Shown piece by piece: positions 34,888 through 64,000 of a stretch of 64,000 bases of DNA. How positions within the stretch are numbered: position 1 is the first letter of the stretch; every line of letters begins with the position of its first letter. Below the pieces are notes generated by a model. The model ran no database searches, had not been told where the DNA came from, and worked only from the letters and a program-made list of their open reading frames with translations. Source of the stretch: Crambe crambe (taxonomy: Eukaryota > Porifera > Demospongiae > Poecilosclerida > Crambeidae); NCBI GenBank assembly GCA_963924555.1, contig OZ004592.1, positions 7,180,624 to 7,244,623 of the forward strand. Reading direction: 5' to 3'. The translations under genes were made by a program, and so were the position numbers.

Positions 34888-36101
34888 ATGGCGGCTAACC
34901 AGGCAGTAAGTGCATTTGTGTTTAGAAATGAAGGGATATGCATGCACACCCACTCACTCAAATTCCAAGGTCTAAGATTGTCTGCATTTTCACATCTTAA
35001 TTATAATTATTCTCAATATAGAAGAAACATAAGCCTGACGAGGTCGAGGCGGTCCTATTTTATTTTGGAACTGAACCACTAAAAATTTGCAAGAAAGTCC
35101 CATTCCGTAATACTGTTAGCATTGATCGCGTTCCTGAGCTTTCGGACATGTCACCGGAGATAGCTCAAGGGAAATTCAAATACTTAGTTACTGTGCGGGA
35201 AGGGGACGTGGAACTATCTGTGTACATTTTCAAGTTTTCACGTGGTAAGGGGTGCAGAGACGTCAGTAGCCCCTTCCACGAAGATCTACCACCAAGTATA
35301 CCTAATAAAGTCATTTCAGACTTAGAACTGTTACACTTGAAAGGAGACGGTAAATTAGGCACTGCCTTTTTTTACATCAATCAACCGAATAGACCATTGA
35401 TTGAATACACGGATAGGGGGTATAACCTCAAATGTGAGGCAACTGACAATTCGTCTCGTATAGGGAGTCACTCCCAGGAAGAGGACCGTGGAGATTCATT
35501 CATTAAGGCGGTCTGTGAATATCTGAAGACCAATCGACCTGACTTAAAATTTATGAGATTCTCAGCAAAGAAAATTCTAGGTGCTGAAGACAAAGTCTCT
35601 CCCTTTTCAGGGGGGGGTGATATGGTATTATTCGGTTGGCCCCTCGAAAAAAAACTAGTGGTGCAAAGTGATGGAGATGGTCCCAGTGAGTGTTCCGAGT
35701 GTTCGCCAATAGATGATGGGGAGCAGAGACTGGCCACAAACGTCGAAATGAAAGATTTGACCTGTCAGTCTGACGAGACGCAATTAAAAGCAAATATGCA
35801 TTTGATGTCTTCCTCGCTAGCTGTTGCGAAGTTGAAGGAACTTGAAAACGTGGACAGGCCAGTCACGTGGCTGAAGGAACTGAAAACTTTCACGTCGTAT
35901 GGAGTGTCATTTGGACAAATAAAACCAGTAGTCATCTTGAAGTTGACAATGGATCTCGTCAATGGGAAATTGAGATACGAAAAAAGATATGAATCTGTTA
36001 TGGATGCAGATAAAGCTCCGAGACTGGCATGTGCCATGGAGTATGTCATAACAAGAATGACTAGTCAATCACCAGAACCCGAAAAGCCTCGAGAAGTGTA
36101 A
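34888..36101 (+). CDS. Orphan family protein, copy C (intact)
   Basis: Two exons (34888-34905 encoding MAANQA; 35022-36101) give 365 residues. The product aligns over its whole length with copy B. Differences are scattered substitutions (e.g. KKHKPDEVEAV for KRHKADEVEAV), one inserted Ala (EIAQGK) and a small deletion after KDLTCQSDE. The C-terminal third (from MHLMSSSLAVAK to the end) is almost identical, as is the intron. The conserved GGGDMVLFG turn is again encoded by a G8 run. The function is unknown; no catalytic signature is convincing. Conservation of the reading frame in two copies, with a shared promoter, argues it is a real gene. Confidence 0.8.
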
Positions 36102-42316: not shown

Positions 42317-42930
42317 TTGATGCCCACCATATCTAATTGATGCCCACCATATCTAATTGATGCCCACCATATCTAATTGATGCCCACCATATCTAATTGA
42401 TGCCCACCATATCTAATTGATGCCCACCATATCTAATTGATGCCCACCATATCTAATTGATGCCCACCATATCTAATTGATGCCCACCATATCTAATTGA
42501 TGCCCACCATATCTAATTGATGCCCACCATATCTAATTGATGCCCACCATATCTAATTGATGCCCACCATATCTAATTGATGCCCACCATATCTAATTGA
42601 TGCCCACCATATCTAATTGATGCCCACCATATCTAATTGATGCCACCATATCTAATTGATGCCCACCATATCTAATTGATGCCCACCATATCTAATTGAT
42701 GCCCACCATATCTAATTGATGCCCACCATATCTAATTGATGCCCACCATATCTAATTGATGCCCACCATATCTAATTGATGCCCACCATATCTAATTGAT
42801 GCCCACCATATCTAATTGATGCCCACCATATCTAATTGATGCCCACCATATCTAATTGATGCCCACCATATCTAATTGATGCCCACCATATCTAATTGAT
42901 GCCCACCATATCTAATTGATGCCCACCATA
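42317..42930 (+). repeat. 20-bp satellite (TGATGCCCACCATATCTAAT), about 31 copies
   Basis: Units are identical except one with a C deletion near 42641. The last unit ends in CCCACCATA and joins directly to GGGCTAGGGCTAGGGG, the seed that opens subtelomeric unit 1. Confidence 0.97.
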
Positions 42931-43144
42931 GGGCTAGGGCTAGGGGCATGGAGAAGGATCCCTCACCATCCCTCATATATATAATATGATCCCTTATATT
43001 CATATACTTGAGTGTTTTATCCCTCAAATTCGCAAATTTGAGTCTTTTTTCCCCTTATGGTCATATACTTGGAGGATTTTACCCTTAAGTCAACCTCAAC
43101 TTCATGGATAAATCTTATCTCGATTTAGGGGTAAAATATCCATG

Positions 43145-43555
43145 AGGTTAGGTTTCTTTAACCTGGGTTGAGGTTTCCAGAGGTAAAATAGCCATGAGGT
43201 TATGTATTGTTAACCTGGGTTGAGGTTTCCAGAGGTAAAATAGCCATGAGGTTATGTCCTGTTAACCTGGGTTGAGGTTTCCAGAGGTAAAATAGCCATG
43301 AGGTTATGTCTTGTTAACCTGGGTTGAGGTTTCCAGAGGTAAAATAGCCATGAGGTTATGTCCTGTTAACCTGGGTTGAGGTTTCCAGAGGTAAAATAGC
43401 CATGAGGTTATGTCTTGTTAACCTGGGTTGAGGTTTCCAGAGGTAAAATAGCCATGAGGTTATCCAACGTTAACCTGGGTTGAGGTTTCCAGAGGTAAAA
43501 TAGCCATGAGGTTTTGTTTCGTTAACAGGGGTTGAGGTAAAGTATCCATGAGGTT
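43145..43555 (+). repeat. 52-bp array, type I (unit 1)
   Basis: Units of AACCTGGGTTGAGGTTTCCA + GAGGTAAAATAGCCATGAGG + TTATGTCYTGTT, seven copies; another run is at 44715-45450 with variants TTATCCAACG alternating with TTATGTCTTG. Unit 2 equivalents are 52058-52350 and 53535-54215. Confidence 0.95.
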
Positions 43556-43812
43556 AGTTAAGTATTTATGAAGTCCCTCAAGTCACGGTAATGCACAGTA
43601 GATGTCCCTCAAGTCTATTCCTACACTTTGAAGTATTACCAAGTACACTTAAGTCCCTCAAGTATAGATAAAGACATTCAAAGTCCCTCAAGGCCAGATA
43701 GAGATTACGGAAGTCCCTCAAGTCATGGTAATGCACAGTAGATGTCCCTCAAGTCTATTCCTACACTTTGAAGTATTACGAAGTACACTTAAGTCCCTCA
43801 AGTCCATGCATC
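43556..43812 (+). repeat. CCCTCAAGT block
   Basis: AAGTCCCTCAAGT recurs about nine times with TGGTAATGCACAGTAGATGT and TATTCCTACACTTTGAAGTA between. Further copies at 45465-45625, 52378-52615 and 54245-54400. Confidence 0.85.
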
Positions 43813-43871
43813 CGTAGCGCAGGCTGAAGGGGAAGTGCACGCCGTAGCCAGCCATATGACACACTCAGTAG

Positions 43872-44261
43872 ATGTCCACCAGTCAACCTACCAACAGGCC
43901 GGCAACACTGAAAAGACTGTCGAAACGTAAGTCATTTACAGTCTGCACACACACTAGTTCAACTCACGTTGTACCATTCAGATACAAGAAGTTGTGGCCA
44001 CGCCTTCCCAAAGCACATCAAACTCCACCCCCAGCAAAAAAGAGACGACTCTATTCCGAAGAAGAATACTCAATCCTAAAGAGATATTTCGACATTGGCG
44101 GAGAGAGGTCTAAAGTGGCAAAACTTTCTGAGTGTGCAGATTTCCTTAGAGAGTACCAGAGAGATATGCAGTTTGAGGGGAAGGACACAGGACAAGATCA
44201 AAAACATGATAAAGCAGAGCAAGTGACAGCAAACCAACAGTTCTTTTTATTTAAAATGTAA
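43872..44261 (+). CDS. Subtelomeric 129-aa ORF, Myb/SANT-like segment (unit 1)
   Basis: An ATG at 43872 opens 129 codons to TAA at 44261. The product is basic at the start (LKRLSKRKS), has an NLS-like PPPAKKRRLYSEEEYSILKR, then KVAKLSECADFLREYQ and a Gln/Lys-rich tail. KKRRxYSEEE...L..CADFL resembles short Myb/SANT-like modules found in repeat-borne animal proteins; this is a weak family match. A GTAAGT at 43927 followed by TTCAG at 43981 could be an intron, but splicing it breaks this frame. The second copy (unit 2) is frameshifted. It may be a host-gene fragment captured in the subtelomere. Confidence 0.45.
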   Translation: MSTSQPTNRPATLKRLSKRKSFTVCTHTSSTHVVPFRYKKLWPRLPKAHQTPPPAKKRRLYSEEEYSILKRYFDIGGERSKVAKLSECADFLREYQRDMQFEGKDTGQDQKHDKAEQVTANQQFFLFKM

Positions 44262-44384
44262 TCAATCATTCTCACAAAAAACAGTACTAATGTAATCAAT
44301 CATTCTCACAATTTCTTTCTATTTCTAATCAAGTCTCACAATTCAAATTTTTCCTCTAGAAATTTAGATACTTTTTGCTGGACA

Positions 44385-44725
44385 TCCCTCCTAGCTATAC
44401 ACTTATCTTTCCCTCCCGGCTTGCACGTCTCGGTGAATATCCTTCATGGATCCTTCCTGGATATTCTGGGACTTTGAAATTTCAGATACTTCTAGGAGGA
44501 CAATTGGTGGCCCCCATGGATTCTGAGAGGACAATTGGTGACCCCCATGGATTCTGGGAGGACAATTGGTGACCCCCATGGGCCAGATATATCATCCCTC
44601 CTAGCTATGACCTTACCTTTCCCTCCTGGCTTGCACATCTCAGTGAATATCCTTCATGGTTTCGTATTCGATCCTTCCTGGATATTCTGGGACTTTGAAA
44701 TTTCAGCTCCTTCTTGGAGGATCCA
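44385..44725 (+). repeat. First two about 230-bp satellite units
   Basis: Each begins CCCTCCTAGCTAT, carries GTGAATATCCTTCATGG, GATCCTTCCTGGATATTCTG and one to four GGAGGACAATTGGTG-CCCCCATGG sub-repeats. The long array is at 45905-47700. Confidence 0.9.
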
Positions 44726-45450
44726 GAGGTAAAATAGCCATGAGGTTATGTCTTGTTAACCTGGGTTGAGGTTTCCAGAGGTAAAATAGCCATGAAGTTA
44801 TCCATCGTTAACTTGGGTTGAGGTTTCCAGAGGTAAAATAGCCATGAGGTTATGTCTTGTTAACCTGGGTTGAGGTTTCCAGAGGTAAAATAGCCATGAG
44901 GTTATCCAACGTTAACCTGGGTTGAGGTTTCCAGAGGTAAAATAGCCATGAGGTTATGTCTTGTTAATCTGGGTTGAGGTTTCCAGAGGTAAAATAGCCA
45001 TGAGGTTATGTCTTGTTAACCTGGGTTGAAGTTTCCAGAGGTAAAATAGCCATGAGGTTATGTCTTGTTAATCTGGGTTGAGGTTTCCAGAGGTAAAATA
45101 GCCATGAGGTTATCCAATGTTAACCTGGGTTGAGGTTTCCAGAGGTAAAATAGCCATGAGGTTATGTCTTGTTAACCTGGGTTGAGGTTTCCAGAGGTAA
45201 AATAGCCATGAGGTTATCCAACGTTAACCTGGGTTGAGGTTTCCAGAGGTAAAATAGCTATGAGGTTATGTCTTGTTAACCTGGGTTGAGGTAAAATAGC
45301 CATGAGGTTATCCAACGTTAACCTGGGTTGAGGTTTCCAGAGGTAAAATAGCCATGAGGTTATGTCTTGTTAACCTGGGTTGAGGTTTTCAGAGGTAAAA
45401 TAGCCATGAGGTTTTGTTTCGTTAACAGGGGTTGAGGTAAAGTATCCATG
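44715..45450 (+). repeat. 52-bp array, type I, second run (unit 1)
   Basis: About 13 copies of the same 52-bp unit as at 43145; one copy has an internal deletion near 45288. Confidence 0.93.
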
Positions 45451-45626
45451 AGGTTAGTTAAGTATTTATGAAGTCCCTCAAGTCATGGTAATGCACAGTA
45501 GATGTCCCTCAAGTCTATTCCTACATTTGGAAGTATTACCAAGTACACTTAAGTCCCTCAAGTCCATGCAAAGTCCCTAAAGGCCTGATAGAGATTACAA
45601 AAGTCCCTCAAGTCATGGTAATGCAC

Positions 45627-45912
45627 AAGAAGTTGTGGCCACGCCTTCCCAAAGCACATCAAACTCCACCCCTCAACCACCAGCAAGTGTATAGCTAGGA
45701 GGGATGTCCAGCCAAAAGTATCTAAATTTCTAGTCCTAATCGAGAGGAAAAATTTTTTATAATTGAATTGTGAGACTTGATTTGAAATATAAAGAAATTG
45801 TGAGAATGATTGATTACATTAGAACTGTTTTTTGTGAGAATGATTGATTAGTCGAAATATCTCTTTAGGATTGAGTATTCTTCTTCGGAATAGAGTCGTC
45901 TCTTTTTTATCT
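45627..45912. repeat. Fold-back copy of the ORF region
   Basis: 45627-45672 repeats 43986-44030 forwards (AAGAAGTTGTGGCCACGCC); from about 45690 to 45907 the sequence is the reverse complement of 44037-44400 with an internal deletion. Repeated at about 54400-54685 in unit 2. Confidence 0.85.
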
Positions 45913-47700
45913 TTCCCTCCCGGCTTGCACGTCTCGGTGAATATCCTTCATGGATCCTTCCTGGATATTCTGGGACCTTGAAATTTCAGATACTTCTAGG
46001 AGGACAATTGGTGGCCCCCATGGATTCTGAGAGGACAATTGGTGACCCCCATGGGCCAGATATATCATCCCTCCTAGCTATGACCTTACCTTGCACATCT
46101 CAGTGGATATCCTTCATGGTTTCGTATTCGATCCTTCCTGGATATTCTGGGACTTTGAAATTTCAGCTCCTTCTTGGAGGACAATTGGTGGCCCCCATGG
46201 ATTCTTGGAGGACAATTGGTGGCCCCCATGGATCCTGAGAGGACAATTGGTGACCCCCATGGATTCTGGGAGGACAATTGGTGACCCCCATGGGCCAGAT
46301 ATATCATCCCTCCTAGCTATGACCTTACCTTTCCCTCCTGGCTTGCACATCTCAGTGAATATCCTTCATGGTTTCGTATTCGATCCTTCCTGGATATTCT
46401 GGGACTTTGAAATTTCAGCTCCTTCTTGGAGGACAATTGGTGGCCCCCATGGATTCTTGGAGGACAATTGGTGGCCCCCATGGATCCTGAGAGGACAATT
46501 GGTGACCCCCATGGATTCTGGGAGGACAATTGGTGACCCCCCATGGGCCAGATATATCATCCCTCCTAGCTATGACCTTACCTTTCCCTCCTGGCTTGCA
46601 CATCTCAGTGAATATCCTTCATGGTTTCGTATTCGATCCTTCCTGGATATTCTGGGACTTTGAAATTTCAGCTCCTTCTTGGAGGACAATTGGTGGCCCC
46701 CATGGATTCTTGGAGGACAATTGGTGGCCCCCATGGATCCTGAGAGGACAATTGGTGACCCCCATCATCCCTCCTAGCTATGACCTTACCTTTCCCTCCT
46801 GGCTTGCACATCTCAGTGAATATCCTTCATGGTTTCATATTCGATCCTTCCTGGATATTCTGGGACTTTGAAATTTCAGCTCCTTCTTGGAGGACAATTG
46901 GTGGCCCCCATGGATTCTTGGAGGACAATTGGTGGCCCCCATGGATCCTGAGAGGACAATTGGTGACCCCCATGGATTCTGGGAGGACAATTGGTGATCC
47001 CCCATGGGCCAGATATATCATCCCTCCTAGCTATGACCTTACCTTTCCCTCCTGGCTTGCACGTCTCAGTGAATATCCTTCATGGTTTCGTATTCGATCC
47101 TTCCTGGATATTCTGGGACTTTGAAATTTCAGATACTTCTAGGAGGACAATTGGTGGCCCCCATGGATTCTGAGAGGACAATTGGTGACCAGATATATCA
47201 TCCCTCCTAGCTATGACCTTACCTTTCCCTCCTGGCTTGCATATCTCAGTGAATATCCTTCATGGTTTCGTATTCGATCCTTCCTGGATATTCTGGGACT
47301 TTGAAATTTCAGCTCCTTCTTGGAGGACAATTGGTGGCCCCCATGGATTCTTGGAGGACAATTGGTGGCCCCCATGGATCCTGAGAGGACAATTGGTGAC
47401 CCCCATGGATTCTGGGAGGACAATTGGTGACCCCCCATGGGCCAGATATATCATCCCTCCTAGCTATGACCTTACCTTTCCCTCCTGGCTTGCACATCTC
47501 AGTGAATATCCTTCATGGTTTCGTATTCGATCCTTCCTGGATATTCTGGGACTTTGAAATTTCAGATACTTCTAGGAGGACAATTGGTGGCCCCCATGGA
47601 TTCTGAGAGGACAATTGGTGACCAGATATATCATCCCTCCTAGCTATGACCTTACCTTTCCCTCCTGGCTTGCACGTCTCAGTGAATATCCTTCATGGTT
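45905..47700 (+). repeat. About 230-bp satellite array (unit 1)
   Basis: Eight units, 185-245 bp, differing in the number of GGAGGACAATTGGTG sub-repeats. They are open in several frames on both strands, giving 60-190-aa frames; this is a property of the repeat, not evidence of genes. Confidence 0.93.
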
Positions 47701-47704
47701 TCAT

Positions 47705-47962
47705 AGAAGGGATGACTAGGGCTAGATGCAACTCGGAAGGGATGACTAGAGCTAGATTCAACTTGGAAGGGATGTCTAGGGCTAGATGCAACTTGGAAGG
47801 GATGTCTAGGGCTAAATGCAACTCAGAAGGGATGACTAGGGCTAGATGCAACTCGGAAGGGATGACTAGGGCTAGATGCAACTTGGAAGGGATGACTAGG
47901 GCTAGATGCAACTTGGAAGGGATGATTAGGGCAAGATGCAACTCGGAAGGGCTAGATTTCAA
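47705..47962 (+). repeat. 30-bp array containing CTAGGG (unit 1)
   Basis: Units of GAAGGGATGACTAGGGCTAG + ATGCAACTCG, nine copies. GACTAGGGCTAG embeds one telomere-type motif per unit. In one frame it reads a ten-residue repeat (EGMTRARCNS). Confidence 0.95.
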
Positions 47963-48420
47963 AGTATATAACCTACATGGCTAAATTAGGTGCCCCGGGT
48001 TAATACAGGTTGAGGTTATAAACCTACATGGCTAAATTAGGTGCCCCCGGGTTAATACAGGTTGAGGTTATAAACCTACATGGCTAAATTAGGTGCCCCC
48101 GGGTTAATACAGGTTGAGGTTATAAACCTACATGGCTAAATTAGGTGCCCCCGGGTTAATACAGGTTGAGGTTATAAACCTACATGGCTAAATTAGGTGC
48201 CCCCGGGTTAATACAGGTTGAGGTTATAAACCTACATGGCTAAATTAGGTGCCCCCGGGTTAATACAGGTTGAGGTTATAAACCTACATGGCTAAATTAG
48301 GTGCCCCCGGGTTAATACAGGTTGAGGTTATAAACCTACATGGCTAAATTAGGTGCCCCCGGGTTAATACAGGTTGAGGTTATAAACCTACATGGCTAAA
48401 TTAGGTGCCCCTGGGTTAAG
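47963..48420 (+). repeat. 52-bp array, type II (unit 1)
   Basis: Units of CTACATGGCTAAATTAGGTG + CCCCCGGGTTAATACAGGTT + GAGGTTATAAAC, about nine copies, almost identical. Confidence 0.97.
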
Positions 48421-51250
48421 ACCTCAACCTACAGGTTAAGGAGATAAGCCCTCAGATTTCTTCAGGTTTCTTCAGGTTAGGTTCAGGTTAGGTTAGGTTG
48501 AGGTTAGAGGTCCAAATCGGCCCGAAGGGCATATGTACACCCCCTAGGGGATCTCTATGGCACATGGGGGCAGGGTTAGCTGTCCTGGGGGCAATTTCAT
48601 CTGGATTACCACGAAATTATCCCTCATGCTTCTCAGGTTATCCCTCCTGACTGTTTTCCACCCATTCAGGTTTCTTCAGGTTTCTTCAGGTTAGGTTAGG
48701 TTGAGGTTAGGTTGAGGTTAGAGGTCCAAATCGGCCCTAAGGGCATATGTACACCCCCTAGGGGATCTCTATGGTACATGAGGGCAGGGTTAGCTGTCCT
48801 GGGGGCATTTTCATCCGGACTACCACGAGGTTATCCCCCATGCCTCTCGGGTTATCCCTCCTGACTGTTTTCCACCCATTCAGGTTTCTTCAGGTTTCTT
48901 CAGGTTTCTTCAGGTTAGGTTAGGTTGAGGTTAGGTTGAGGTTAGAGGTCCAAATCGGCCTGAAGGGCATATGTACACCCCCTAGGGGATCTCTATGGCA
49001 CATGAGGGCAGGGTTAGCTGTCCTGGGGGCATTTTCATCCGGACTACCACGAGGTTATCCCTCATGCTTCTCAGGTTATCCCTCCTGACTGTTTTCCACC
49101 CATTCAGGTTTCTTCAGGTTTCTTCAGGTTTCTTCAGGTTAGGTTAGGTTGAGGTTAGGTTGAGGTTAGAGGTCCAAATCGGCCCTAAGGGCATATGTAC
49201 ACCCCCTAGGGGATCTCTATGGCACATGGGGGCAGGGTTAGCTGTCCTGGGGGCAATTTCATCTGGATTACCACGAAATTATCCCTCATGCTTCTCAGGT
49301 TATCCCTCCTGACTGTTTTCCACCCATTCAGGTTTCTTCAGGTTTCTTCAGGTTAGGTTAGGTTGAGGTTAGGTTGAGGTTAGAGGTCCAAATCGGCCCT
49401 AAGGGCATATGTACACCCCCTAGGGGATCTCTATGGCACATGGGGGCAGGGTTAGCTGTCCTGGGGGCAATTTCATCTGGATTACCACGAAATTATCCCT
49501 CATGCTTCTCAGGTTATCCCTCCTGACTGTTTTCCACCCATTCAGGTTTCTTCAGGTTTCTTCAGGTTTCTTCAGGTTAGGTTAGGTTGAGGTTAGGTTG
49601 AGGTTAGAGGTCCAAATCGGCCCTAAGGGCATATGTACACCCCCTAGGGGATCTCTATGGTACATGAGGGCAGGGTTAGCTGTCCTGGGGGCATTTTCAT
49701 CCGGACTACCACGAGGTTATCCCCCATGCCTCTCGGGTTATCCCTCCTGACTGTTTTCCACCCATTCAGGTTTCTTCAGGTTTCTTCAGGTTTCTTCAGG
49801 TTAGGTTAGGTTGAGGTTAGGTTGAGGTTAGAGGTCCAAATCGGCCTGAAGGGCATATGTACACCCCCTAGGGGATCTCTATGGCACATGAGGGCAGGGT
49901 TAGCTGTCCTGGGGGCATTTTCATCCGGACTACCACGAGGTTATCCCTCATGCTTCTCAGGTTATCCCTCCTGACTGTTTTCCACCCATTCAGGTTTCTT
50001 CAGGTTTCTTCAGGTTTCTTCAGGTTAGGTTAGGTTGAGGTTAGGTTGAGGTTAGAGGTCCAAATCGGCCCTAAGGGCATATGTACACCCCCTAGGGGAT
50101 CTCTATGGCACATGGGGGCAGGGTTAGCTGTCCTGGGGGCAATTTCATCTGGATTACCACGAAATTATCCCTCATGCTTCTCAGGTTATCCCTCCTGACT
50201 GTTTTCCACCCATTCAGGTTTCTTCAGGTTTCTTCAGGTTAGGTTAGGTTGAGGTTAGGTTGAGGTTAGAGGTCCAAATCGGCCCTAAGGGCATATGTAC
50301 ACCCCCTAGGGGATCTCTATGGCACATGGGGGCAGGGTTAGCTGTCCTGGGGGCAATTTCATCTGGATTACCACGAAATTATCCCTCATGCTTCTCAGGT
50401 TATCCCTCCTGACTGTTTTCCACCCATTCAGGTTTCTTCAGGTTTCTTCAGGTTTCTTCAGGTTAGGTTAGGTTGAGGTTAGGTTGAGGTTAGAGGTCCA
50501 AATCGGCCCTAAGGGCATATGTACACCCCCTAGGGGATCTCTATGGTACATGAGGGCAGGGTTAGCTGTCCTGGGGGCATTTTCATCCGGACTACCACGA
50601 GGTTATCCCTCATGCTTCTCAAGTTATCCCTTCTGACTGTTTTCCACCCATTCAGGTTTCTTCAGGTTTCTTCAGGTTTCTTCAGGTTAGGTTAGGTTGA
50701 GGTTAGAGGTCCAAATCGGCCCGAAGGGCATATGTACACCCCCTAGGGGATCTCTGTGGCACATGGGGGCAGGGTTACCTGTCCTGGGGGCATTTTCATC
50801 CGAGGTTATCCCCCATGCTTCTCAGGTTATCCCTCCTGACTGTTTTCCACCCATTCAGGTTTCTTCAGGTTAGGTTCAGGTTAGGTTAGGTTGAGGTTAG
50901 AGGTCCAAATCGGCCCGAAGGGCAAATGTACACCTCCTGGGGGATCTGTAGTGCTCATGGGGGCTAGGTTAGCTGTCCTAGGGGCATTTTCATCCGGATT
51001 ACCATGAAATTATCCCTCATGCTTCTCAGGTTATCCCTCCTGACTGTTTTCCACCCATTCAGGTTTCTTCAGGTTAGGTTCAGGTTAGGTTAGGTTGAGG
51101 TTAGAGGTCAAAATCGGCCCGAAGGGCAAATGTACACCCCCTGGGGGATCTGGAGTGCTCATGGGGGCAAGGTTAAATGTCCTGGGGGGATTTTATTCAG
51201 AGGTTATCCCCCATGCTTCTCAGGTTATCCCTCCTGACTGTTTTCTACCC
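48421..51250 (+). repeat. About 215-225-bp satellite array (unit 1), about 13 copies
   Basis: Each unit has CAGGTTTCTT (1-3 times), GGTTAGGTTAGGTTGAGG, GAGGTCCAAATCGGCC, GGGCATATGTACACCCCCTA, GGGGCAGGGTTAGCTGTCCT and GGTTATCCCTCCTGACTG. Length varies with the CAGGTTTCTT number. Two sub-types (GGCACATGGGG and GGTACATGAGG) alternate in blocks, indicating multi-unit amplification. Confidence 0.95.
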
Positions 51251-51842
51251 ATTCATGGCTATTTTTGGGGCCCCCTAGGTTTGATCAGGTTTGATCAGGT
51301 TTGATTATTGGTCGAAAACGACCATGGGGGCCTCGAATTTAGCCGTGAGGGCATTTTTTTAGTCCTAAGGGACGTTTTTTTAGCCATTAGGGCTTGATAT
51401 TATCCATGAGGGATGCCATGAGGGCCTTGCTCAAAAGAAAATTGTAGTTTATCCCCCAAGGTTGGTAACCTAACCCTTGTGGCATCAAAACCCATCCCTC
51501 AACTCAAAATAAGACCAGTTTTTAGTCCTAAGGGCCGGGTTATGTTGCCACGAGGGATAACCGGGTGTTCATGAGGGCAAGGTTAAGGTAGCTTTAGGGA
51601 TATTTCCCTCATGCTACCGAACCTGGCCCCCATGCTTATCAGGTTTGCCCTCAGGCTCGAAACCTAACCTCAGGTTAAACCTGAGGTTTCTTCAGTTTTC
51701 TTTAAATCCCTAGTTTTCGAGATCGATTTTGCCCTCAAGGGCCAAGGTTTCTCGGCATGGGGGCGATTTTTAGCCCTAAGGGAACCTAGGTTTCTCTAGG
51801 TTAGGTTAAGCAAAACCTCAGGCATCCCCGACTCCATAGCTA
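51251..51842 (+). repeat. Terminal segment of subtelomeric unit 1
   Basis: TTTGATCAGG repeats, then text dense in CCTAAGGG, CATTAGGG, CCATGAGGG and TAACCTCAGG words. It ends CAGGCATCCCCGACTCCATA, directly before the next CTAGGG seed. Confidence 0.9.
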
Positions 51843-52688
51843 GGGCTAGGGCTAGGGGCATGGAGAAGGATCCCTCACCATCCCTCATATATATAATATG
51901 ATCCCTTATATTCATATACTTGAGTGTTTTATCCCTCAAATTCGCAAATTTGAGTCTTTTTTCCCCTTATGGTCATATACTTGGAGGATTTTACCCTTAA
52001 GTCAACCTCAACTTCATGGATAAATCTTATCTCGATTTAGGGGTAAAATATCCATGAGGTTAGGTTTCTTTAACCTGGGTTGAGGTTTCCAGAGGTAAAA
52101 TAGCCATGAGGTTAAGTATTGTTAACCTGGGTTGAGGTTTCCAGAGGTAAAATAGCCATGAGGTTATGTCCTGTTAACCTGGGTTGAGGTTTTCAGAGGT
52201 AAAATAGCCATGAGGTTATGTCTTGTTAACCTGGGTTGAGGTTTCCAGAGGTAAAATAGCCATGAGGTTATCCAACGTTAACCTGGGTTGAGGTTTCCAG
52301 AGGTAAAATAGCCATGAGGTTTTGTTTCGTTAACAGGGGTTGAGGTAAAGTATCCATGAGGTTAGTTAAGTATTTATGAAGTCCCTCAAGTCACGGTAAT
52401 GCACAGTAGATGTCCCTCAAGTCTATTCCTACACTTTGAAGTATTACCAAGTACACTTAAGTCCCTCAAGTATAGATAAAGACATTCAAAGTCCCTCAAG
52501 GCCAGATAGAGATTACGGAAGTCCCTCAAGTCATGGTAATGCACAGTAGATGTCCCTCAAGTCTATTCCTACACTTTGAAGTATTACGAAGTACACTTAA
52601 GTCCCTCAAGTCCATTCATCCGTAGCGCAGGCTGAAACCACAGAAGGGGAAGTGCACGCCGTAGCCAGCCATATGACGCACTCAGTAG

Positions 52689-53076
52689 ATGTCCACCAGT
52701 CAACCTACCAACAGGCCGGCAACACTGAAAAGACTGTCGAAACGTAAGTCATTTACAGTCTGCACACACACTAGTTCAACTCACGTTGTACCATTCAGAT
52801 ACAAGAAGTTGTGGCCACGCCTTCCCAAAGCACATCAAACTCCACCCCCAGCAAAAAAGAGGACTCTATTCCGAAGAAGAATACTCAATCCTAAAGAGAT
52901 ATTTCGACATTGGCGGAGAGAGGTCTAAAGTGGCAAAACTTTCTGAGTGTGCAGATTTCCTTAGAGAGTACCAGAGAGATATGCAGTTTGAGGGGAAGGA
53001 CACAGGACAAGATCAAAAACATGATAAAGCAGAGCAAGTGACAGCAAACCAACAGTTCTTTTTATTTAAAATGTAA
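52689..53076 (+). pseudogene. Frameshifted copy of the subtelomeric ORF (unit 2)
   Basis: Compared with 43872-44261, two bases are missing after CAGCAAAAAAGAG (near 52862). The first frame then runs to a stop at 52928, whereas the second half (LYSEEEYSILKRYFD) is in another frame. Confidence 0.85.
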
Positions 53077-53189
53077 TCAATCATTCTCACAAAAAACAGT
53101 ACTAATGTAATCAATCATTCTCACAATTTCTTTCTATTTCTAATCAAGTCTCACAATTCAAATTTTTCCTCTAGAAATTTAGATACTTT

Positions 53190-54685
53190 TTGCTGGACAT
53201 CCCTCCTAGCTATACACTTATCTTTCCCTCCCGGCTTGCACGTCTCGGTGAATATCCTTCATGGATCCTTCCTGGATATTCTGGGACTTTGAAATTTCAG
53301 ATACTTCTAGGAGGACAATTGGTGGCCCCCATGGATTCTGAGAGGACAATTGGTGACCCCCATGGATTCTGGGAGGACAATTGGTGACCCCCATGGGCCA
53401 GATATATCATCCCTCCTAGCTATGACCTTACCTTTCCCTCCTGGCTTGCACATCTCAGTGAATATCCTTCATGGTTTCGTATTCGATCCTTCCTGGATAT
53501 TCTGGGACTTTGAAATTTCAGCTCCTTCTTGGAGGATCCAGAGGTAAAATAGCCATGAGGTTATGTCTTGTTAACCTGGGTTGAGGTTTCCAGAGGTAAA
53601 ATAGCCATGAGGTTATCCATCGTTAACTTGGGTTGAGGTTTCCAGAGGTAAAATAGCCATGAGGTTATGTCTTGTTAACCTGGGTTGAGGTTTCCAGAGG
53701 TAAAATAGCCATGAGGTTATCCAACGTTAACCTGGGTTGAGGTTTCCAGAGGTAAAATAGCCATGAGGTTATGTCTTGTTAATCTGGGTTGAGGTTTCCA
53801 GAGGTAAAATAGCCATGAGGTTATGTCTTGTTAACCTGGGTTGAAGTTTCCAGAGGTAAAATAGCCATGAGGTTATGTCTTGTTAATCTGGGTTGAGGTT
53901 TCCAGAGGTAAAATAGCCATGAGGTTATCCAATGTTAACCTGGGTTGAGGTTTCCAGAGGTAAAATAGCCATGAGGTTATGTCTTGTTAACCTGGGTTGA
54001 GGTTTCCAGAGGTAAAATAGCCATGAGGTTATGTCTTGTTAACCTGGGTTGAGGTTTCCAGAGGTAAAATAGCCATGAGGTTATCCAACGTTAACCTGGG
54101 TTGAGGTTTCCAGAGGTAAAATAGCCATGAGGTTATGTCTTGTTAACCTGGGTTGAGGTTTTCAGAGGTAAAATAGCCATGAGGTTTTGTTTCGTTAACA
54201 GGGGTTGAGGTAAAGTATCCATGAGGTTAGTTAAGTATTTATGAAGTCCCTCAAGTCATGGTAATGCACAGTAGATGTCCCTCAAGTCTATTCCTACATT
54301 TGGAAGTATTACCAAGTACACTTAAGTCCCTCAAGTCCATGCAAAGTCCCTAAAGGCCTGATAGAGATTACAAAAGTCCCTCAAGTCATGGTAATGCACA
54401 AGAAGTTGTGGCCACGCCTTCCCAAAGCACATCAAACTCCACCCCTCAACCACCAGCAAGTGTATAGCTAGGAGGGATGTCCAGCCAAAAGTATCTAAAT
54501 TTCTAGTCCTAATCGAGAGGAAAAATTTTTTATAATTGAATTGTGAGACTTGATTTTAAATATAAAGAAATTGTGAGAATGATTGATTACATTAGAACTG
54601 TTTTTTGTGAGAATGATTGATTAGTCGAAATATCTCTTTAGGATTGAGTATTCTTCTTCGGAATAGAGTCGTCTCTTTTTTATCT
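53190..54685 (+). repeat. Unit 2: 230-bp units, 52-bp array, CCCTCAAGT block, fold-back
   Basis: Same order as 44385-45912 in unit 1, with 53190-53535, 53535-54215, 54245-54400 and 54400-54685 respectively. Confidence 0.9.
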
Positions 54686-56655
54686 TTCCCTCCCGGCTTG
54701 CACGTCTCGGTGAATATCCTTCATGGATCCTTCCTGGATATTCTGGGACCTTGAAATTTCAGATACTTCTAGGAGGACAATTGGTGGCCCCCATGGATTC
54801 TGAGAGGACAATTGGTGACCCCCATGGGCCAGATATATCATCCCTCCTAGCTATGACCTTACCTTGCACATCTCAGTGGATATCCTTCATGGTTTCGTAT
54901 TCGATCCTTCCTGGATATTCTGGGACTTTGAAATTTCAGCTCCTTCTTGGAGGACAATTGGTGGCCCCCATGGATTCTTGGAGGACAATTGGTGGCCCCC
55001 ATGGATCCTGAGAGGACAATTGGTGACCCCCATGGATTCTGGGAGGACAATTGGTGACCCCCATGGGCCAGATATATCATCCCTCCTAGCTATGACCTTA
55101 CCTTTCCCTCCTGGCTTGCACATCTCAGTGAATATCCTTCATGGTTTCGTATTCGATCCTTCCTGGATATTCTGGGACTTTGAAATTTCAGATACTTCTA
55201 GGAGGACAATTGGTGGCCCCCATGGATTCTGAGAGGACAATTGGTGACCAGATATATCATCCCTCCTAGCTATGACCTTACCTTTCCCTCCTGGCTTGCA
55301 CATCTCAGTGAATATCCTTCATGGTTTCGTATTCGATCCTTCCTGGATATTCTGGGACTTTGAAATTTCAGCTCCTTCTTGGAGGACAATTGGTGGCCCC
55401 CATGGATTCTTGGAGGACAATTGGTGGCCCCCATGGATCCTGAGAGGACAATTGGTGATCCCCATGGATTCTGGGAGGACAATTGGTGACCCCCCATGGG
55501 CCAGATATATCATCCCTCCTAGCTATGACCTTACCTTTCCCTCCTGGCTTGCACATCTCAGTGAATATCCTTCATGGTTTCGTATTCGATCCTTCCTGGA
55601 TATTCTGGGACTTTGAAATTTCAGCTCCTTCTTGGAGGACAATTGGTGGCCCCCATGGATTCTTGGAGGACAATTGGTGGCCCCCATGGATCCTGAGAGG
55701 ACAATTGGTGACCCCCATCATCCCTCCTAGCTATGACCTTACCTTTCCCTCCTGGCTTGCACATCTCAGTGAATATCCTTCATGGTTTCATATTCGATCC
55801 TTCCTGGATATTCTGGGACTTTGAAATTTCAGCTCCTTCTTGGAGGACAATTGGTGGCCCCCATGGATTCTTGGAGGACAATTGGTGGCCCCCATGGATC
55901 CTGAGAGGACAATTGGTGACCCCCATGGATTCTGGGAGGACAATTGGTGATCCCCCATGGGCCAGATATATCATCCCTCCTAGCTATGACCTTACCTTTC
56001 CCTCCTGGCTTGCACGTCTCAGTGAATATCCTTCATGGTTTCGTATTCGATCCTTCCTGGATATTCTGGGACTTTGAAATTTCAGATACTTCTAGGAGGA
56101 CAATTGGTGGCCCCCATGGATTCTGAGAGGACAATTGGTGACCAGATATATCATCCCTCCTAGCTATGACCTTACCTTTCCCTCCTGGCTTGCATATCTC
56201 AGTGAATATCCTTCATGGTTTCGTATTCGATCCTTCCTGGATATTCTGGGACTTTGAAATTTCAGCTCCTTCTTGGAGGACAATTGGTGGCCCCCATGGA
56301 TTCTTGGAGGACAATTGGTGGCCCCCATGGATCCTGAGAGGACAATTGGTGACCCCCATGGATTCTGGGAGGACAATTGGTGACCCCCCATGGGCCAGAT
56401 ATATCATCCCTCCTTGCTATGACCTTACCTTTCCCTCCTGGCTTGCACATCTCAGTGAATATCCTTCATGGTTTCGTATTCGATCCTTCCTGGATATTCT
56501 GGGACTTTGAAATTTCAGATACTTCTAGGAGGACAATTGGTGGCCCCCATGGATTCTGAGAGGACAATTGGTGACCAGATATATCATCCCTCCTAGCTAT
56601 GACCTTACCTTTCCCTCCTGGCTTGCACGTCTCAGTGAATATCCTTCATGGTTTC
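54686..56655 (+). repeat. About 230-bp satellite array (unit 2)
   Basis: Nine units, one more than unit 1. Otherwise base-for-base close, including the truncated CCCCCATCATCCCTCC unit at 55713. Confidence 0.92.
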
Positions 56656-57375
56656 ATAGAAGGGATGACTAGGGCTAGATGCAACTCGGAAGGGATGACT
56701 AGAGCTAGATTCAACTTGGAAGGGATGTCTAGGGCTAGATGCAACTTGGAAGGGATGTCTAGGACTAAATGCAACTCAGAAGGGATGACTAGGGCTAGAT
56801 GCAACTCGGAAGGGATGACTAGGGCTAGATGCAACTCGGAAGGGATGACTAGGGCTAGATGCAACTTGGAAGGGATGATTAGGGCAAGATGCAACTCGGA
56901 AGGGCTAGATTTCAAAGTATATAACCTACATGGCTAAATTAGGTGCCCCGGGTTAATACAGGTTGAGGTTATAAACCTACATGGCTAAATTAGGTGCCCC
57001 CGGGTTAATACAGGTTGAGGTTATAAACCTACATGGCTAAATTAGGTGCCCCCGGGTTAATACAGGTTGAGGTTATAAACCTACATGGCTAAATTAGGTG
57101 CCCCCGGGTTAATACAGGTTGAGGTTATAAACCTACATGGCTAAATTAGGTGCCCCCGGGTTAATACAGGTTGAGGTTATAAACCTACATGGCTAAATTA
57201 GGTGCCCCCGGGTTAATACAGGTTGAGGTTATAAACCTACATGGCTAAATTAGGTGCCCCCGGGTTAATACAGGTTGAGGTTATAAACCTACATGGCTAA
57301 ATTAGGTGCCCCCGGGTTAATACAGGTTGAGGTTATAAACCTACATGGCTAAATTAGGTGCCCCTGGGTTAAGAC
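56656..57375 (+). repeat. 30-bp and type II 52-bp arrays (unit 2)
   Basis: The 30-bp array is at 56656-56915 and the type II 52-bp array at 56916-57375, with the same copy numbers as unit 1. Confidence 0.93.
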
Positions 57376-59345
57376 CTCAACCTACAGGTTAAGGAGATAA
57401 GCCCTCAGATTTCTTCAGGTTTCTTCAGGTTAGGTTCAGGTTAGGTTAGGTTGAGGTTAGAGGTCCAAATCGGCCCGAAGGGCATATGTACACCCCCTAG
57501 GGGATCTCTATGGCACATGGGGGCAGGGTTAGCTGTCCTGGGGGCAATTTCATCTGGATTACCACGAAATTATCCCTCATGCTTCTCAGGTTATCCCTCC
57601 TGACTGTTTTCCACCCATTCAGGTTTCTTCAGGTTTCTTCAGGTTAGGTTAGGTTGAGGTTAGGTTGAGGTTAGAGGTCCAAATCGGCCCTAAGGGCATA
57701 TGTACACCCCCTAGGGGATCTCTATGGTACATGAGGGCAGGGTTAGCTGTCCTGGGGGCATTTTCATCCGGACTACCACGAGGTTATCCCCCATGCCTCT
57801 CGGGTTATCCCTCCTGACTGTTTTCCACCCATTCAGGTTTCTTCAGGTTTCTTCAGGTTTCTTCAGGTTAGGTTAGGTTGAGGTTAGGTTGAGGTTAGAG
57901 GTCCAAATCGGCCCTAAGGGCATATGTACACCCCCTAGGGGATCTCTATGGCACATGGGGGCAGGGTTAGCTGTCCTGGGGGCAATTTCATCTGGATTAC
58001 CACGAAATTATCCCTCATGCTTCTCAGGTTATCCCTCCTGACTGTTTTCCACCCATTCAGGTTTCTTCAGGTTTCTTCAGGTTAGGTTAGGTTGAGGTTA
58101 GGTTGAGGTTAGAGGTCCAAATCGGCCCTAAGGGCATATGTACACCCCCTAGGGGATCTCTATGGCACATGGGGGCAGGGTTAGCTGTCCTGGGGGCAAT
58201 TTCATCTGGATTACCACGAAATTATCCCTCATGCTTCTCAGGTTATCCCTCCTGACTGTTTTCCACCCATTCAGGTTTCTTCAGGTTTCTTCAGGTTTCT
58301 TCAGGTTAGGTTAGGTTGAGGTTAGGTTGAGGTTAGAGGTCCAAATCGGCCCTAAGGGCATATGTACACCCCCTAGGGGATCTCTATGGTACATGAGGGC
58401 AGGGTTAGCTGTCCTGGGGGCATTTTCATCCGGACTACCACGAGGTTATCCCCCATGCCTCTCGGGTTATCCCTCCTGACTGTTTTCCACCCATTCAGGT
58501 TTCTTCAGGTTTCTTCAGGTTTCTTCAGGTTAGGTTAGGTTGAGGTTAGGTTGAGGTTAGAGGTCCAAATCGGCCCTAAGGGCATATGTACACCCCCTAG
58601 GGGATCTCTATGGCACATGGGGGCAGGGTTAGCTGTCCTGGGGGCAATTTCATCTGGATTACCACGAAATTATCCCTCATGCTTCTCAGGTTATCCCTCC
58701 TGACTGTTTTCCACCCATTCAGGTTTCTTCAGGTTTCTTCAGGTTAGGTTAGGTTGAGGTTAGGTTGAGGTTAGAGGTCCAAATCGGCCCTAAGGGCATA
58801 TGTACACCCCCTAGGGGATCTCTATGGCACATGGGGGCAGGGTTAGCTGTCCTGGGGGCAATTTCATCTGGATTACCACGAAATTATCCCTCATGCTTCT
58901 CAGGTTATCCCTCCTGACTGTTTTCCACCCATTCAGGTTTCTTCAGGTTTCTTCAGGTTAGGTTAGGTTGAGGTTAGGTTGAGGTTAGAGGTCCAAATCG
59001 GCCCTAAGGGCATATGTACACCCCCTAGGGGATCTCTATGGCACATGGGGGCAGGGTTAGCTGTCCTGGGGGCAATTTCATCTGGATTACCACGAAATTA
59101 TCCCTCATGCTTCTCAGGTTATCCCTCCTGACTGTTTTCCACCCATTCAGGTTTCTTCAGGTTAGGTTCAGGTTAGGTTAGGTCGAGGTTAGAGGTCAAA
59201 ATCGGCCCGAAGGGCAAATGTACACCCCCTGGGGGATCTGTAGTGCTCATGGGGGCAAGGTTAAATGTCCTGGGGGGATTTTATTCAGAGGTTATCCCCC
59301 ATGCTTCTCAGGTTATCCCTCCTGACTGTTTTCTACCCATTCATG
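57376..59345 (+). repeat. About 215-bp satellite array (unit 2), about 9 copies
   Basis: Same sub-types as unit 1 but about four units fewer, accounting for most of the length difference between the two units. One copy has TTAGGTCGAGG in place of TTAGGTTGAGG at 59180. Confidence 0.93.
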
Positions 59346-59925
59346 GCTATTTTTGGGGCCCCCTAGGTTTGATCAGGTTTGATCAGGTTTGATTATTGGT
59401 CGAAAACGACCATGGGGGCCTCGAATTTAGCCGTGAGGGCATTTTTTTAGTCCTAAGGGACGTTTTTTTAGCCATTAGGGCTCGATATTATCCATGAGGG
59501 ATGCCATGAGGGCCTTGCTCAAAAGAAAATTGTAGTTTATCCCCCAAGGTTGGTAACCTGACCCCTGTGGCATCAAAACCCATCCCTCAACTCAAAATAA
59601 GACCAGTTTTTAGTCCTAAGGGCCGGGTTATGTTGCCACGAGGGATAACCGGGTGCTCATGAGGGCAAGGTTAAGGTAGCTTTAGGGATATTTCCCTCAT
59701 GCTACCGAACCTGGCCCCCATGCTTATCAGGTTTGCCCTCAGGCTCGAAACCTAACCTCAGGTTAAACCTGAGGTTTCTTCAGTTTTCTTTAAATCCCTA
59801 GTTTTCGAGATCGATTTTGCCCTCAAGGGCCAAGGTTTCTTGGCATGGGGGCGATTTTTAGCCCTAAGGGAACCTAGGTTTCTCTAGGTTAGGTGAGGCA
59901 AAACCTCAGGCATCCCCCACTCCAT

Positions 59926-60604
59926 AGCTAGGGCTAGGGCCAGGGCTAGGGCTAGGGCTAGGGCCAGGGCTAGGGCTAGGGCTAGGGCCAGGGCTAGGGC
60001 TAGGGCTAGGGCCAGGGCTAGGGCTAGGGCTAGGGCCAGGGCTAGGGCTAGGGCTAGGGCCAGGGCTAGGGCTAGGGCTAGGGCCAGGGCTAGGGCTAGG
60101 GCTAGGGCCAGGGCTAGGGCTAGGGCTAGGGCCAGGGCTAGGGCTAGGGCTAGGGCCAGGGCTAGGGCTAGGGCTAGGGCCAGGGCTAGGGCTAGGGCTA
60201 GGGCCAGGGCTAGGGCTAGGGCTAGGGCCAGGGCTAGGGCTAGGGCTAGGGCCAGGGCTAGGGCTAGGGCTAGGGCCAGGGCTAGGGCTAGGGCTAGGGC
60301 CAGGGCTAGGGCTAGGGCTAGGGCCAGGGCTAGGGCTAGGGCTAGGGCCAGGGCTAGGGCTAGGGCCAGGGCCAGGGCTAGGGCTAGGGCCAGGGCCAGG
60401 GCTAGGGCTAGGGCCAGGGCCAGGGCTAGGGCTAGGGCCAGGGCCAGGGCTAGGGCTAGGGCCAGGGCCAGGGCTAGGGCTAGGGCCAGGGCCAGGGCTA
60501 GGGCTAGGGCCAGGGCCAGGGCTAGGGCTAGGGCCAGGGCCAGGGCTAGGGCTAGGGCCAGGGCCAGGGCTAGGGCTAGGGCCAGGGCTAGGGCTAGGGC
60601 CAGG
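59926..60604 (+). repeat. Proximal telomeric array with CCAGGG/CTAGGG higher-order repeats
   Basis: First (CCAGGG)1(CTAGGG)3, a 24-bp unit, for about 17-18 copies to about 60365; then (CCAGGG)2(CTAGGG)2, also 24 bp, for about nine copies to about 60580, then a short transition. Phase with the distal array is kept. Confidence 0.95.
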
Positions 60605-63600
60605 GCCTAGGGCTAGGGCTAGGGCAGGGCTAGGGCTAGGGCTAGGGCTAGGGCTAGGGCTAGGGCTAGGGCTAGGGCTAGGGCTAGGGCTAGGGCTAGG
60701 GCTAGGGCTAGGGCTAGGGCTAGGGCTAGGGCTAGGGCTAGGGCTAGGGCTAGGGCTAGGGCTAGGGCTAGGGCTAGGGCGGCTAGGGCTAGGGCTAGGG
60801 CTAGGGCTAGGGCTAGGGCTAGGGCTAGCTAGGGCTAGGGCTAGGGCTAGGGCTAGGGCTAGGGCTAGGGCTAGGCTAGGGCTAGGGCTAGGGCTAGGGG
60901 CTAGGGCTAGGGCTAGGGCTAGGGCTAGGGCTAGGGCTAGGGCTAGGGCTAGGGCTAGGGCTAGGGCTAGGGCTAGGGCTAGGGCTAGGGCTAGGGCTAG
61001 GGCTAGGGCTAGGGCTAGGGCTAGGGCTAGGGCTAGGGCTAGGGCTAGGGCTAGGGCTAGGGCTAGGGCTAGGGCTAGGGCTAGGGCTAGGGCTAGGGCT
61101 AGGGCTAGGGCTAGGGCTAGGGCTAGGGCTAGGGCTAGGGCTAGGGCTAGGGCTAGGGCTAGGGCTAGGGCTAGGGCTAGGGCTAGGGCTAGGGCTAGGG
61201 CTAGGGCTAGGGCTAGGGCTAGGGCTAGGGCTAGGGCTAGGGCTAGGGCTAGGGCTAGGGCTAGGGCTAGGGCTAGGGCTAGGGCTAGGGCTAGGGCTAG
61301 GGCTAGGGCTAGGGCTAGGGCTAGGGCTAGGGCTAGGGCTAGGGCTAGGCTAGGCTGGGCTAGGGCTAGGGCTAGGGCTAGGGCTAGGGCTAGGGCTAGG
61401 GCTAGGGCTAGGGCTAGGGCTAGGGCTAGGGCTAGGGCTAGGGCTAGGGCTAGGGCTAGGGCTAGGGCTAGGGCTAGGGCTAGGGCTAGGGCTAGGGCTA
61501 GGGCTAGGGCTAGGCTAGGGCTAGGGCTAGGGCTAGGGCTAGGGCTAGGGCTGGGCTAGGGCTAGGGCTAGGGCTAGGGCTAGGGCTAGGGCTAGGGCTA
61601 GGGCTAGGGCTAGGGCTAGGGCTAGGGCTAGGGCTAGGGCTAGGGCTAGGGCTAGGGCTAGGGCTAGGGCTAGGGCTAGGGCTAGGGCTAGGGCTAGGGC
61701 TAGGGCTAGGGCTAGGGCTAGGGCTAGGGCTAGGGCTAGGGCTAGGGCTAGGGCTAGGGCTAGGGCTAGGGCTAGGGCTAGGGCTAGGGCTAGGGCTAGG
61801 GCTAGGGCTAGGGCTAGGGCTAGGGCTAGGGCTAGGGCTAGGGCAGGGCTAGGGCTAGGGCTAGGGCTAGGGCTAGGGCTAGGGCTAGGGCTAGGGCTAG
61901 GGCTAGGGCTAGGGCTAGGGCTAGGGCTAGGGCTAGGGCTAGGGCTAGGGCTAGGGCTAGGGCTAGGGTAGGGCTAGGGCTAGGGCTAGGGCTAGGGCTA
62001 GGGCTAGGGCTAGGGCTAGGGCTAGGGCTAGGGCTAGGGCTAGGGCTAGGGCTAGGGCTAGGGCTAGGGCTAGGGCTAGGGCTAGGGCTAGGGCTAGGGC
62101 TAGGGCTAGGGCTAGGGCTAGGGCTAGGGCTAGGGCTAGGGCTAGGGCTAGGGCTAGGGCTAGGGCTAGGGCTAGGGCTAGGGCTAGGGCTAGGGCTAGG
62201 GCTAGGGCTAGGGCTAGGGCTAGGGCTAGGGCTAGGGCTAGGGCTAGGGCTAGGGCTAGGGCTAGGGCTAGGGCTAGGGCTAGGGCTAGGGCTAGGGCTA
62301 GGGCTAGGGCTAGGGCTAGGGCTAGGGCTAGGGCTAGGGCTAGGGCTAGGGCTAGGGCTAGGGCTAGGGCTAGGGCTAGGGCTAGGGCTAGGGCTAGGGC
62401 TAGGGCTAGGGCTAGGGCTAGGGCTAGGGCTAGGGCTAGGGCTAGGGCTAGGGCTAGGGCTAGGGCTAGGGCTAGGGCTAGGGCTAGGGCTAGGGCTAGG
62501 GCTAGGGCTAGGGCTAGGGCTAGGCTAGGGCTAGGGCTAGGGCTAGGGCTAGGGCTAGGGCTAGGGCTAGGGCTAGGGCTAGGGCTAGGGCTAGGGCTAG
62601 GGCTAGGGCTAGGGCTAGGGCTAGGGCTAGGGCTAGGGCTAGGGCTAGGGCTAGGGGCTAGGGCTAGGGCTAGGGCTAGGGCTAGGGCTAGGGCTAGGGC
62701 TAGGGCTAGGGCTAGGGCTAGGGCTAGGGCTAGGGCTAGGGCTAGGGCTAGGGCTAGGGCTAGGGCTAGGGCTAGGGCTAGGGCTAGGGCTAGGGCTAGG
62801 GCTAGGGCTAGGGCTAGGGCTAGGGCTAGGGCTAGGGCTAGGGCTAGGGCTAGGGCTAGGGCTAGGGCTAGGGCTAGGGCTAGGGCTAGGGCTAGGGCTA
62901 GGGCTAGGGCTAGGGCTAGGGCTAGGGCTAGGGCTAGGGCTAGGGCTAGGGCTAGGGCTAGGGCTAGGGCTAGGGCTAGGGCTAGGGCTAGGGCTAGGGC
63001 TAGGGCTAGGGCTAGGGCTAGGGCTAGGGCTAGGGCTAGGGCTAGGGCTAGGGCTAGGGCTAGGGCTAGGGCTAGGGCTAGGGCTAGGGCTAGGGCTAGG
63101 CTAGGGCTAGGGCTAGGGCTAGGGCTAGGGCTAGGGCTAGGGCTAGGGCTAGGGCTAGGGCTAGGGCTAGGGCTAGGGCTAGGGCTAGGGCTAGGGCTAG
63201 GGCTAGGGCTAGGGCTAGGGCTAGGGCTAGGGCTAGGGCTAGGGCTAGGGCTAGGGCTAGGGCTAGGGCTAGGGCTAGGGCTAGGGCTAGGGCTAGGGCT
63301 AGGGGCTAGGGCTAGGGCTAGGGCTAGGGGCTTAGGGCTAGGGCTAGGGCTAGGGCTAGGGCTAGGGCTAGGGCTAGGGCTAGGGCTAGGGCTAGGGCTA
63401 GGGCTAGGGCTAGGGCTAGGGCTAGGGCTAGGGCTAGGGCTAGGGCTAGGGCTAGGGCTAGGGCTAGGGCTAGGGCTAGGGCTAGGGCTAGGGCTAGGGC
63501 TAGGGCTAGGGCTAGGGCTAGGGCTAGGGCTAGGGCTAGGGCTAGGGCTAGGGCTAGGGCTAGGGCTAGGGCTAGGGCTAGGGCTAGGGCTAGGGCTAGG

Positions 63601-64000
63601 CTAGGGCTAGGGCTAGGGCTAGGGCTAGGGCTAGGGCTAGGGCTAGGGCTAGGGCTAGGGCTAGGGCTAGGGCTAGGGCTAGGGCTAGGGCTAGGGCTAG
63701 GGCTAGGGCTAGGGCTAGGCCCTAGGCTAGGGCTAGGGCTAGGGCTAGGGCTAGGGCTAGGGCTAGGGCTAGGGCTAGGGCTAGGGCTAGGGCTAGGGCT
63801 AGGGCTAGGGCTAGGGCTAGGGCTAGGGCTAGGGCTAGGGCTAGGGCTAGGGCTAGGGCTAGGGCTAGGGCTAGGGCTAGGGCTAGGGCTAGGGCTAGGG
63901 CTAGGGCTAGGGCTAGGGCTAGGGCTAGGGCTAGGGCTAGGGCTAGGGCTAGGGCTAGGGCTAGGGCTAGGGCTAGGGCTAGGGCTAGGGCTAGGGCTAG
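60605..64000 (+). repeat. CTAGGG telomere-like array to the window end
   Basis: About 3.4 kb of CTAGGG hexamers, G-rich strand 5'->3' towards the right edge, as expected for a right-hand chromosome end. Rare one- or two-base slips (e.g. 60781, 60873, 61347, 61844, 62523, 63330, 63720). No TTAGGG tract was seen. Confidence 0.93.

Follow-up and report, generated by a model that had tools for sequence, protein, structure and literature searches.

TTAGGG telomeres were detected in three sponge species by fluorescence in situ hybridization (PMC5793068, citing Sakai 2007), a technique in which a TTAGGG probe might cross-hybridize with a one-base variant of the repeat. Here we describe a terminal array of CTAGGG repeats in the window, a stretch of 64,000 bases (C15:7180624-7244623) on contig C15 of a genome assembly that is most likely of demosponge origin. 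This array resembles the (TTAGGG)n telomeres of animals, including those of the three sponges, in being a terminal, G-rich hexamer of equal length and frame that is accompanied by relatives of TERT and POT1. It differs in that position 1 of the unit is C, not T, and in that tandem TTAGGG is missing from the inspected ends.

An identical hexamer is known among the variant repeats of human telomeres (PMC3919612, PMC8905155, PMC8492063), where it is minor and proximally enriched among TTAGGG units, whereas here most of the array, including its distal end, consists of it. Human telomerase synthesizes position-1 variants among others, and TRF1 and TRF2 bind CTAGGG less (PMC3919612), and (CTAGGG)n in human telomeres is described as unstable and as binding POT1 efficiently (PMC8492063). 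It is because of this reported instability, poor TRF1/TRF2 binding and good POT1 binding that a CTAGGG telomere is notable. Partial tolerance of another altered unit, TTAGGT, was described in a human family with a telomerase template variant (PMC11144197). In the plant genus Mimulus, the telomere units AAACCG and AAACCCG changed via duplicated telomerase RNA genes (PMC12169523). Our case is similar in that a lineage-specific unit change is best explained by an altered RNA template; it differs in concerning an animal and another base of the unit, and in that the RNA gene was not found by the searches run. The main text of TeloBase does not mention CTAGGG (PMC10767889). Among the matches listed in our literature search, no title or abstract presented a species whose telomere unit is CTAGGG; one may be recorded in preprints or in online telomere databases, which lay outside this search.

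The last base of the window is also the last base of C15 (7,244,623 bases), and the array therefore closes the contig. When positions 60605-64000 were split into 566 units, 544 of these were exact CTAGGG; CCAGGG and TCAGGG were absent, the string GTAGGG appeared once, and the single TTAGGG lay within GCTTAGGG, near 63330. Identity at a lag of six bases was 97.5%, and the longest unbroken run measured 546 bp. The G-rich strand runs 5' to 3' towards the contig end, as fits a telomere, and with an adjoining mixed zone included the true start of the array is at 59928. A sequence-only reading of the window had proposed that near-pure CTAGGG closes it in telomere orientation, which was confirmed.

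The same reading had called for an inspection of all chromosome ends for CTAGGG versus TTAGGG. The assembly comprises 143.1 Mb in 119 contigs, and all counts and end inspections were made on the assembled sequence. Eighteen contigs of 5.7-9.7 Mb (C1, C3, C5, C6 and C8-C21; 140.97 Mb, 98.5% of the assembly) form the chromosome-scale set. Each of their ends was inspected over 4 kb, except for 1 kb at the ends of C19, C20 and C21 and longer stretches for C1, C10, C12 and C15. CTAGGG arrays that reach the contig end with the G-rich strand pointing outward were present at 28 of the 36 ends, namely at 15 starts (C3, C5, C6, C8, C9, C10, C11, C13, C14 and C16-C21) and 13 ends (C3, C5, C6, C8, C9, C11, C12, C14, C15, C16, C18, C19 and C20). 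In the distal 900 bp of these 28 arrays, 4,128 CTAGGG units stood against 49 other units, chiefly one-base gains or losses and a few clipped by the 900-bp limit; the only TTAGGG unit was the one in the C15 window. Tandem TTAGGG (at least two units) occurred at none of the 36 ends within the length inspected. Across the assembly, we counted 40,889 matches to four consecutive CTAGGG units (19,099 forward and 21,790 reverse), as opposed to two matches to four TTAGGG units, one per strand and both internal. The former correspond to approximately 245 kb, or an estimated 7-9 kb per end if spread over 28-33 arrays. In six small contigs (C2, C4, C7, C22, C23 and C24), the first 4 kb were free of arrays. 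The CTAGGG telomere is real and genome-wide; its terminal unit is not the TTAGGG of the animal telomere type, and the human arrangement with the canonical unit distal to the variant was not observed.

Older CTAGGG tracts were found inside the subtelomere, where the sequence-only reading had also noticed seeds of the motif. Before position 59928 there are 38 CTAGGG copies, including tracts of two and three units that lie exactly at the junctions of two large blocks (Table 1), the remainder being mostly single copies within 30-bp and ~224-bp satellites. The two block copies share 95.5-97.5% identity in in-register pieces longer than 1.5 kb and 91% over their first ~2.5 kb, and the last 1.87 kb of copy 2 is 98% identical to the end of C16. 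The left flank of the linker at 51840, GACTCCATAG, recurs unchanged where C16 meets its live telomere and, with one base exchanged, at the corresponding junction of C15, and its right flank, GCATGGAGAAGG, is identical to the sequence following 42945. A satellite related to the 20-bp satellite of the window lies at the start of C12, where it passes directly into a CTAGGG array with no block in between. Yeast Y' elements are added outside telomere ends and thereby trap short telomere tracts. The blocks in the window are arranged similarly, as tandem subtelomeric units with short telomere-repeat linkers, and the block-free junction of C12 also has its counterpart there; the sponge blocks differ in being satellite-rich, and the likeness is one of arrangement. 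By analogy, the simple reading is that the 8-9 kb blocks were gained by recombination outside older telomere ends, leaving short CTAGGG linkers behind. Because the tracts trapped at the junctions are CTAGGG, the CTAGGG unit predates the blocks and is old in the lineage.

Candidate genes for telomere maintenance and capping were present as well. The TERT RNA-binding domain PF12009 matched twice on C6 (E 1.0e-13 and 1.9e-6, both above the cut-off), and the same locus contains LRFIPKVSKVRPIVNLG, which we take to be TERT motif 1-2; we regard these exons as TERT-like. POT1-type OB folds (PF02765) were predicted at C20:502097 (7.4e-25) and C21:151856 (4.4e-11), the first OB fold of the C20 candidate also matching human POT1 (1xjv; E 6.7e-20), as would be consistent with a shelterin-capped telomere.

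Taken together, the terminal position, orientation and purity of the arrays, their presence at 28 of 36 ends, the near-absence of tandem TTAGGG, the TERT-like exons, the POT1 OB fold and the older CTAGGG tracts make it highly probable (approximately 85% for the combined statement) that the array is a genuine chromosome telomere, that CTAGGG is the chromosomal telomere unit of this species, and that it is maintained by a telomerase with a CUAGCC RNA template; synthesis by telomerase and the changed template are the parts that we infer. The animal telomerase RNA template is 5'-CUAACCCUAAC in the human register. To produce CTAGGG, it would have changed to 5'-CUAGCCCUAGC or to some shorter version, and the telomerase RNA would carry CUAGCCCUAG. 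POT1-type binding of the overhang would tolerate the T-to-C exchange at repeat position 1, and the double-strand binder would have to be adapted or of another type.

Several observations weigh against this interpretation. Eight of the 36 ends lacked a correctly oriented terminal array. Five of them, the C15 start and the far ends of C1, C13, C17 and C21, contained no array in the length inspected. The start of C1 held a 61-bp CTAGGG tract at 1246-1306 and, from 10.2 kb to at least 18 kb, an array that points the other way. At the start of C12 and the end of C10, arrays flip from CTAGGG to CCCTAG across a garbled CCTAGG stretch without any N; these are two telomeres joined tail to tail, either by an assembly join or by a real telomere fusion. 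The reading frame of the stronger PF12009 match is interrupted by one TAG, possibly because of an intron or a defect, and a PDB search with a 48-residue piece around LRFIPKVSKVRPIVNLG gave no match at E 0.001. For a TRF-type binder, PF08558 gave no match, and since no control genome matched either, this is no evidence of absence. Finally, a telomerase RNA was not found by searches with RF00024 or for template-like, P6.1-like or pseudoknot features.

Telomerase RNAs are known from three sponge species (PMC8480181), and the RNA family therefore exists in sponges. RF00024 had no match in the whole genome. Isolated CTAGCCCTAGC occurred at 74 places, and the 57 loci read included no convincing telomerase RNA candidate; the 17 unread places were extra copies in an array on C12 (12), a cluster on C14 (4) and a pair on C8 (1). 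Neither did a template combined with a U-run (71 places, 20 loci read) yield a convincing telomerase RNA, and none of the six places with a P6.1-like motif, all of which were read, had a template-like string upstream. A motif scan of the 57 loci gave exact P6.1-like matches in L082 only, where the three copies were taken as a repeat owing to their recurring TCTTAATGGAG[A/G]TGGTCTC context. Of 77 loci (78 oriented rows) scanned for pseudoknots, only L113 was retained; it was rejected as a hairpin resembling a miniature inverted-repeat transposable element (MITE), and visual inspection led to the same judgement for L132. The criteria for P6.1 and for pseudoknots follow human telomerase RNA, and a divergent RNA can escape them.

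The number of isolated CTAGCCCTAGC places (74) exceeded that of a reversed-pattern control (12) and the 23-33 expected from a Markov model of window positions 1-42000, whereas the TTAGGG counterpart pattern occurred 18 times versus 28 in its control (expected 11-35). A strong interstitial enrichment was set aside in view of the CpG-bearing control (two CpGs in the reversed pattern; CpG observed/expected 0.55 in window 1-42000), the Markov expectation and the clustered or repeated copies, 13 of the 74 being in one array, five in one cluster and several in a repeated MITE-like family; the excess is modest. A dispersed repeat, possibly a MITE, has GCTAGCTAGCCCTAGCT near one conserved stretch (ATCAATGAAGTTGGAAAAGTAAA...) at seven loci (Table 1).

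Three other explanations were weighed against a telomerase-made CTAGGG telomere. In the first, CTAGGG is no more than a block of variant repeats below the terminus, like that of human telomeres, and the TTAGGG cap distal to it was lost from the assembly. Assemblies do lose sequence at contig ends, and the human variant is enriched proximally (PMC8905155). However, each of the 28 arrays was inspected up to the contig end and none had tandem TTAGGG, four consecutive TTAGGG units occur only twice in 143 Mb, and CTAGGG also makes up the fossil tracts at 42934 and 51840, which leaves this explanation improbable. We regard it as equally improbable that telomerase was lost or inactivated and that CTAGGG satellite arrays are maintained through recombination. 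The unsuccessful searches for a telomerase RNA, the local recombination revealed by the subtelomeric block duplications and the fusion-like joins at C10 and C12 would fit such upkeep, but TERT-like exons are still present, and at 28 ends the distal arrays consist of uniform hexamers, in contrast to the varying blocks and satellites. An error of base calling or consensus that turned TTAGGG into CTAGGG is very improbable: consensus is garbled (CCTAGG mixtures) at the C10 and C12 flips and over the final ~27 bases of C6, but both strands and both contig ends agree (starts read CCCTAG and ends CTAGGG), short CTAGGG tracts lie internally in unique sequence (C1:1246-1306, window 42934 and 51840, C15:1263986), C15 and C16 have a junction in common, and the known nanopore telomere errors give other motifs (TTAAAA, CTTCTT, CCCTGG). 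The sequence-only reading had named confinement of CTAGGG to this locus and a distal TTAGGG cap as outcomes that would speak against it, and neither was encountered in the assembly; against the third outcome that it named, a base-calling artefact, the evidence is indirect.

We conclude that this is most probably an ordinary telomerase-type telomere with an unusually informative one-letter unit change. The telomere repeat and its end-binding proteins are thought to constrain each other, and an animal telomere made entirely of CTAGGG offers a natural experiment that bears on which repeat position may change and on how POT1, the double-strand binder and telomerase RNA change together. The synthesis of position-1 variants by human telomerase (PMC3919612) suggests a path in which errors tolerated by POT1 were followed by fixation in the template. 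More tentatively, this sponge lineage may long have fixed, genome-wide, a variant that in humans is unstable and weakly bound by TRF1 and TRF2, with protection by a re-specified double-strand binder or a mainly POT1-based cap, and with an overhang that would normally be CTAG-paired or form a quadruplex with G.C.G.C tetrads. In folding predictions, (CTAGGG)8 paired via CTAG at -5.2 kcal/mol and (TTAGGG)8 stayed unfolded; since none of the 200 shuffles folded less well than (CTAGGG)8, the fold was rejected as evidence and no claim was built on it. In practical terms, real ends may be overlooked when sponge assemblies are searched for telomeres with TTAGGG.

The assignment to sponges, which the sequence-only reading had presupposed, is supported by an exon on C15 that resembles C1 peptidases and in which Ser replaces the catalytic Cys (QGDCGSSYAF). 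Its best PDB match was silicatein alpha (6zq3; E 1.7e-13), followed by cathepsin L1 (4.7e-12). Other frames of the locus include GNMYYAYQYVLGNDGVDTSSGYPYKG, which, together with another frame, we take to be silicatein-like. Silicatein is not known outside demosponges. Among 121 matches to PF00112, two other inspected loci (L134 and L147) were ordinary cathepsins. The silicatein-like exon and the 18 chromosomes thus most likely reflect a demosponge origin.

Proximal to the near-pure array, the mixed zone consists of 17 copies of CCAGGG(CTAGGG)3 followed by nine of (CCAGGG)2(CTAGGG)2. Exact matches to CCAGGG(CTAGGG)3CCAGGG numbered 18 in the genome, 17 of them in this zone and one at C16:1075663, and the end of C16 has no CCAGGG zone, although its last 1.87 kb before the telomere is 98% identical to C15. 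The zone is therefore a local proximal variant, comparable to the variant repeats of human telomeres.

Table 1 Features of the C15 window (positions without contig name) and of related loci elsewhere in the assembly
Feature	Position	Strand	Remarks
20-bp satellite, 30.8 copies	42317..42930	+	shares 88.8-90% identity with that of the C12 start
Fossil telomere tract (CTAGGG)2	42934..42945	+	joins 20-bp satellite to block 1
Proximal subtelomeric block, copy 1	42946..51839	+	satellite-rich
Fossil telomere tract (CTAGGG)3	51840..51857	+	separates block 1 from block 2
Distal satellite-rich subtelomeric block, copy 2	51858..59927	+	telomere-side end ...ACTCCATAG
Proximal mixed zone, CTAGGG and CCAGGG	59928..60604	+	two successive 24-bp arrangements
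Near-pure (CTAGGG)n telomere array	60605..64000	+	runs to contig end; 544/566 units exact
Tail-to-tail telomere arrays	C12:762-9000		L022, L148
Tail-to-tail telomere arrays	C10:8724412-8732411		L149, L035
Dispersed repeat	C5:4402460		L078
Dispersed repeat	C13:241142		L090
Dispersed repeat	C13:295349		L091
Dispersed repeat	C16:3927586		L099
Dispersed repeat	C16:4655230		L100
Dispersed repeat	C19:2902770		L108
Dispersed repeat	C1:4262103		L074

Both blocks contain a 30-bp satellite, GAAGGGATGACTAGGGCTAGATGCAACTCG, at 47706-47951 and 56659-56904, the unit of which includes CTAGGGCTAG. Near the subtelomere, three open reading frames at 21091-21615 (+), 23913-24989 (-) and 35022-36101 (+) belong to one protein family (K[R/K]HK[A/P]DEVEAVLFYFGT...); the one scanned against Pfam, 35022-36101, had no match at E 0.01. 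Ordinary genes lie proximal to the subtelomere: the one at 8056-9039 (-) belongs to the ADP-specific glucokinase/phosphofructokinase family (PF04587), and the one at 14273-16486 (-) encodes a member of glycosyl hydrolase family 31.
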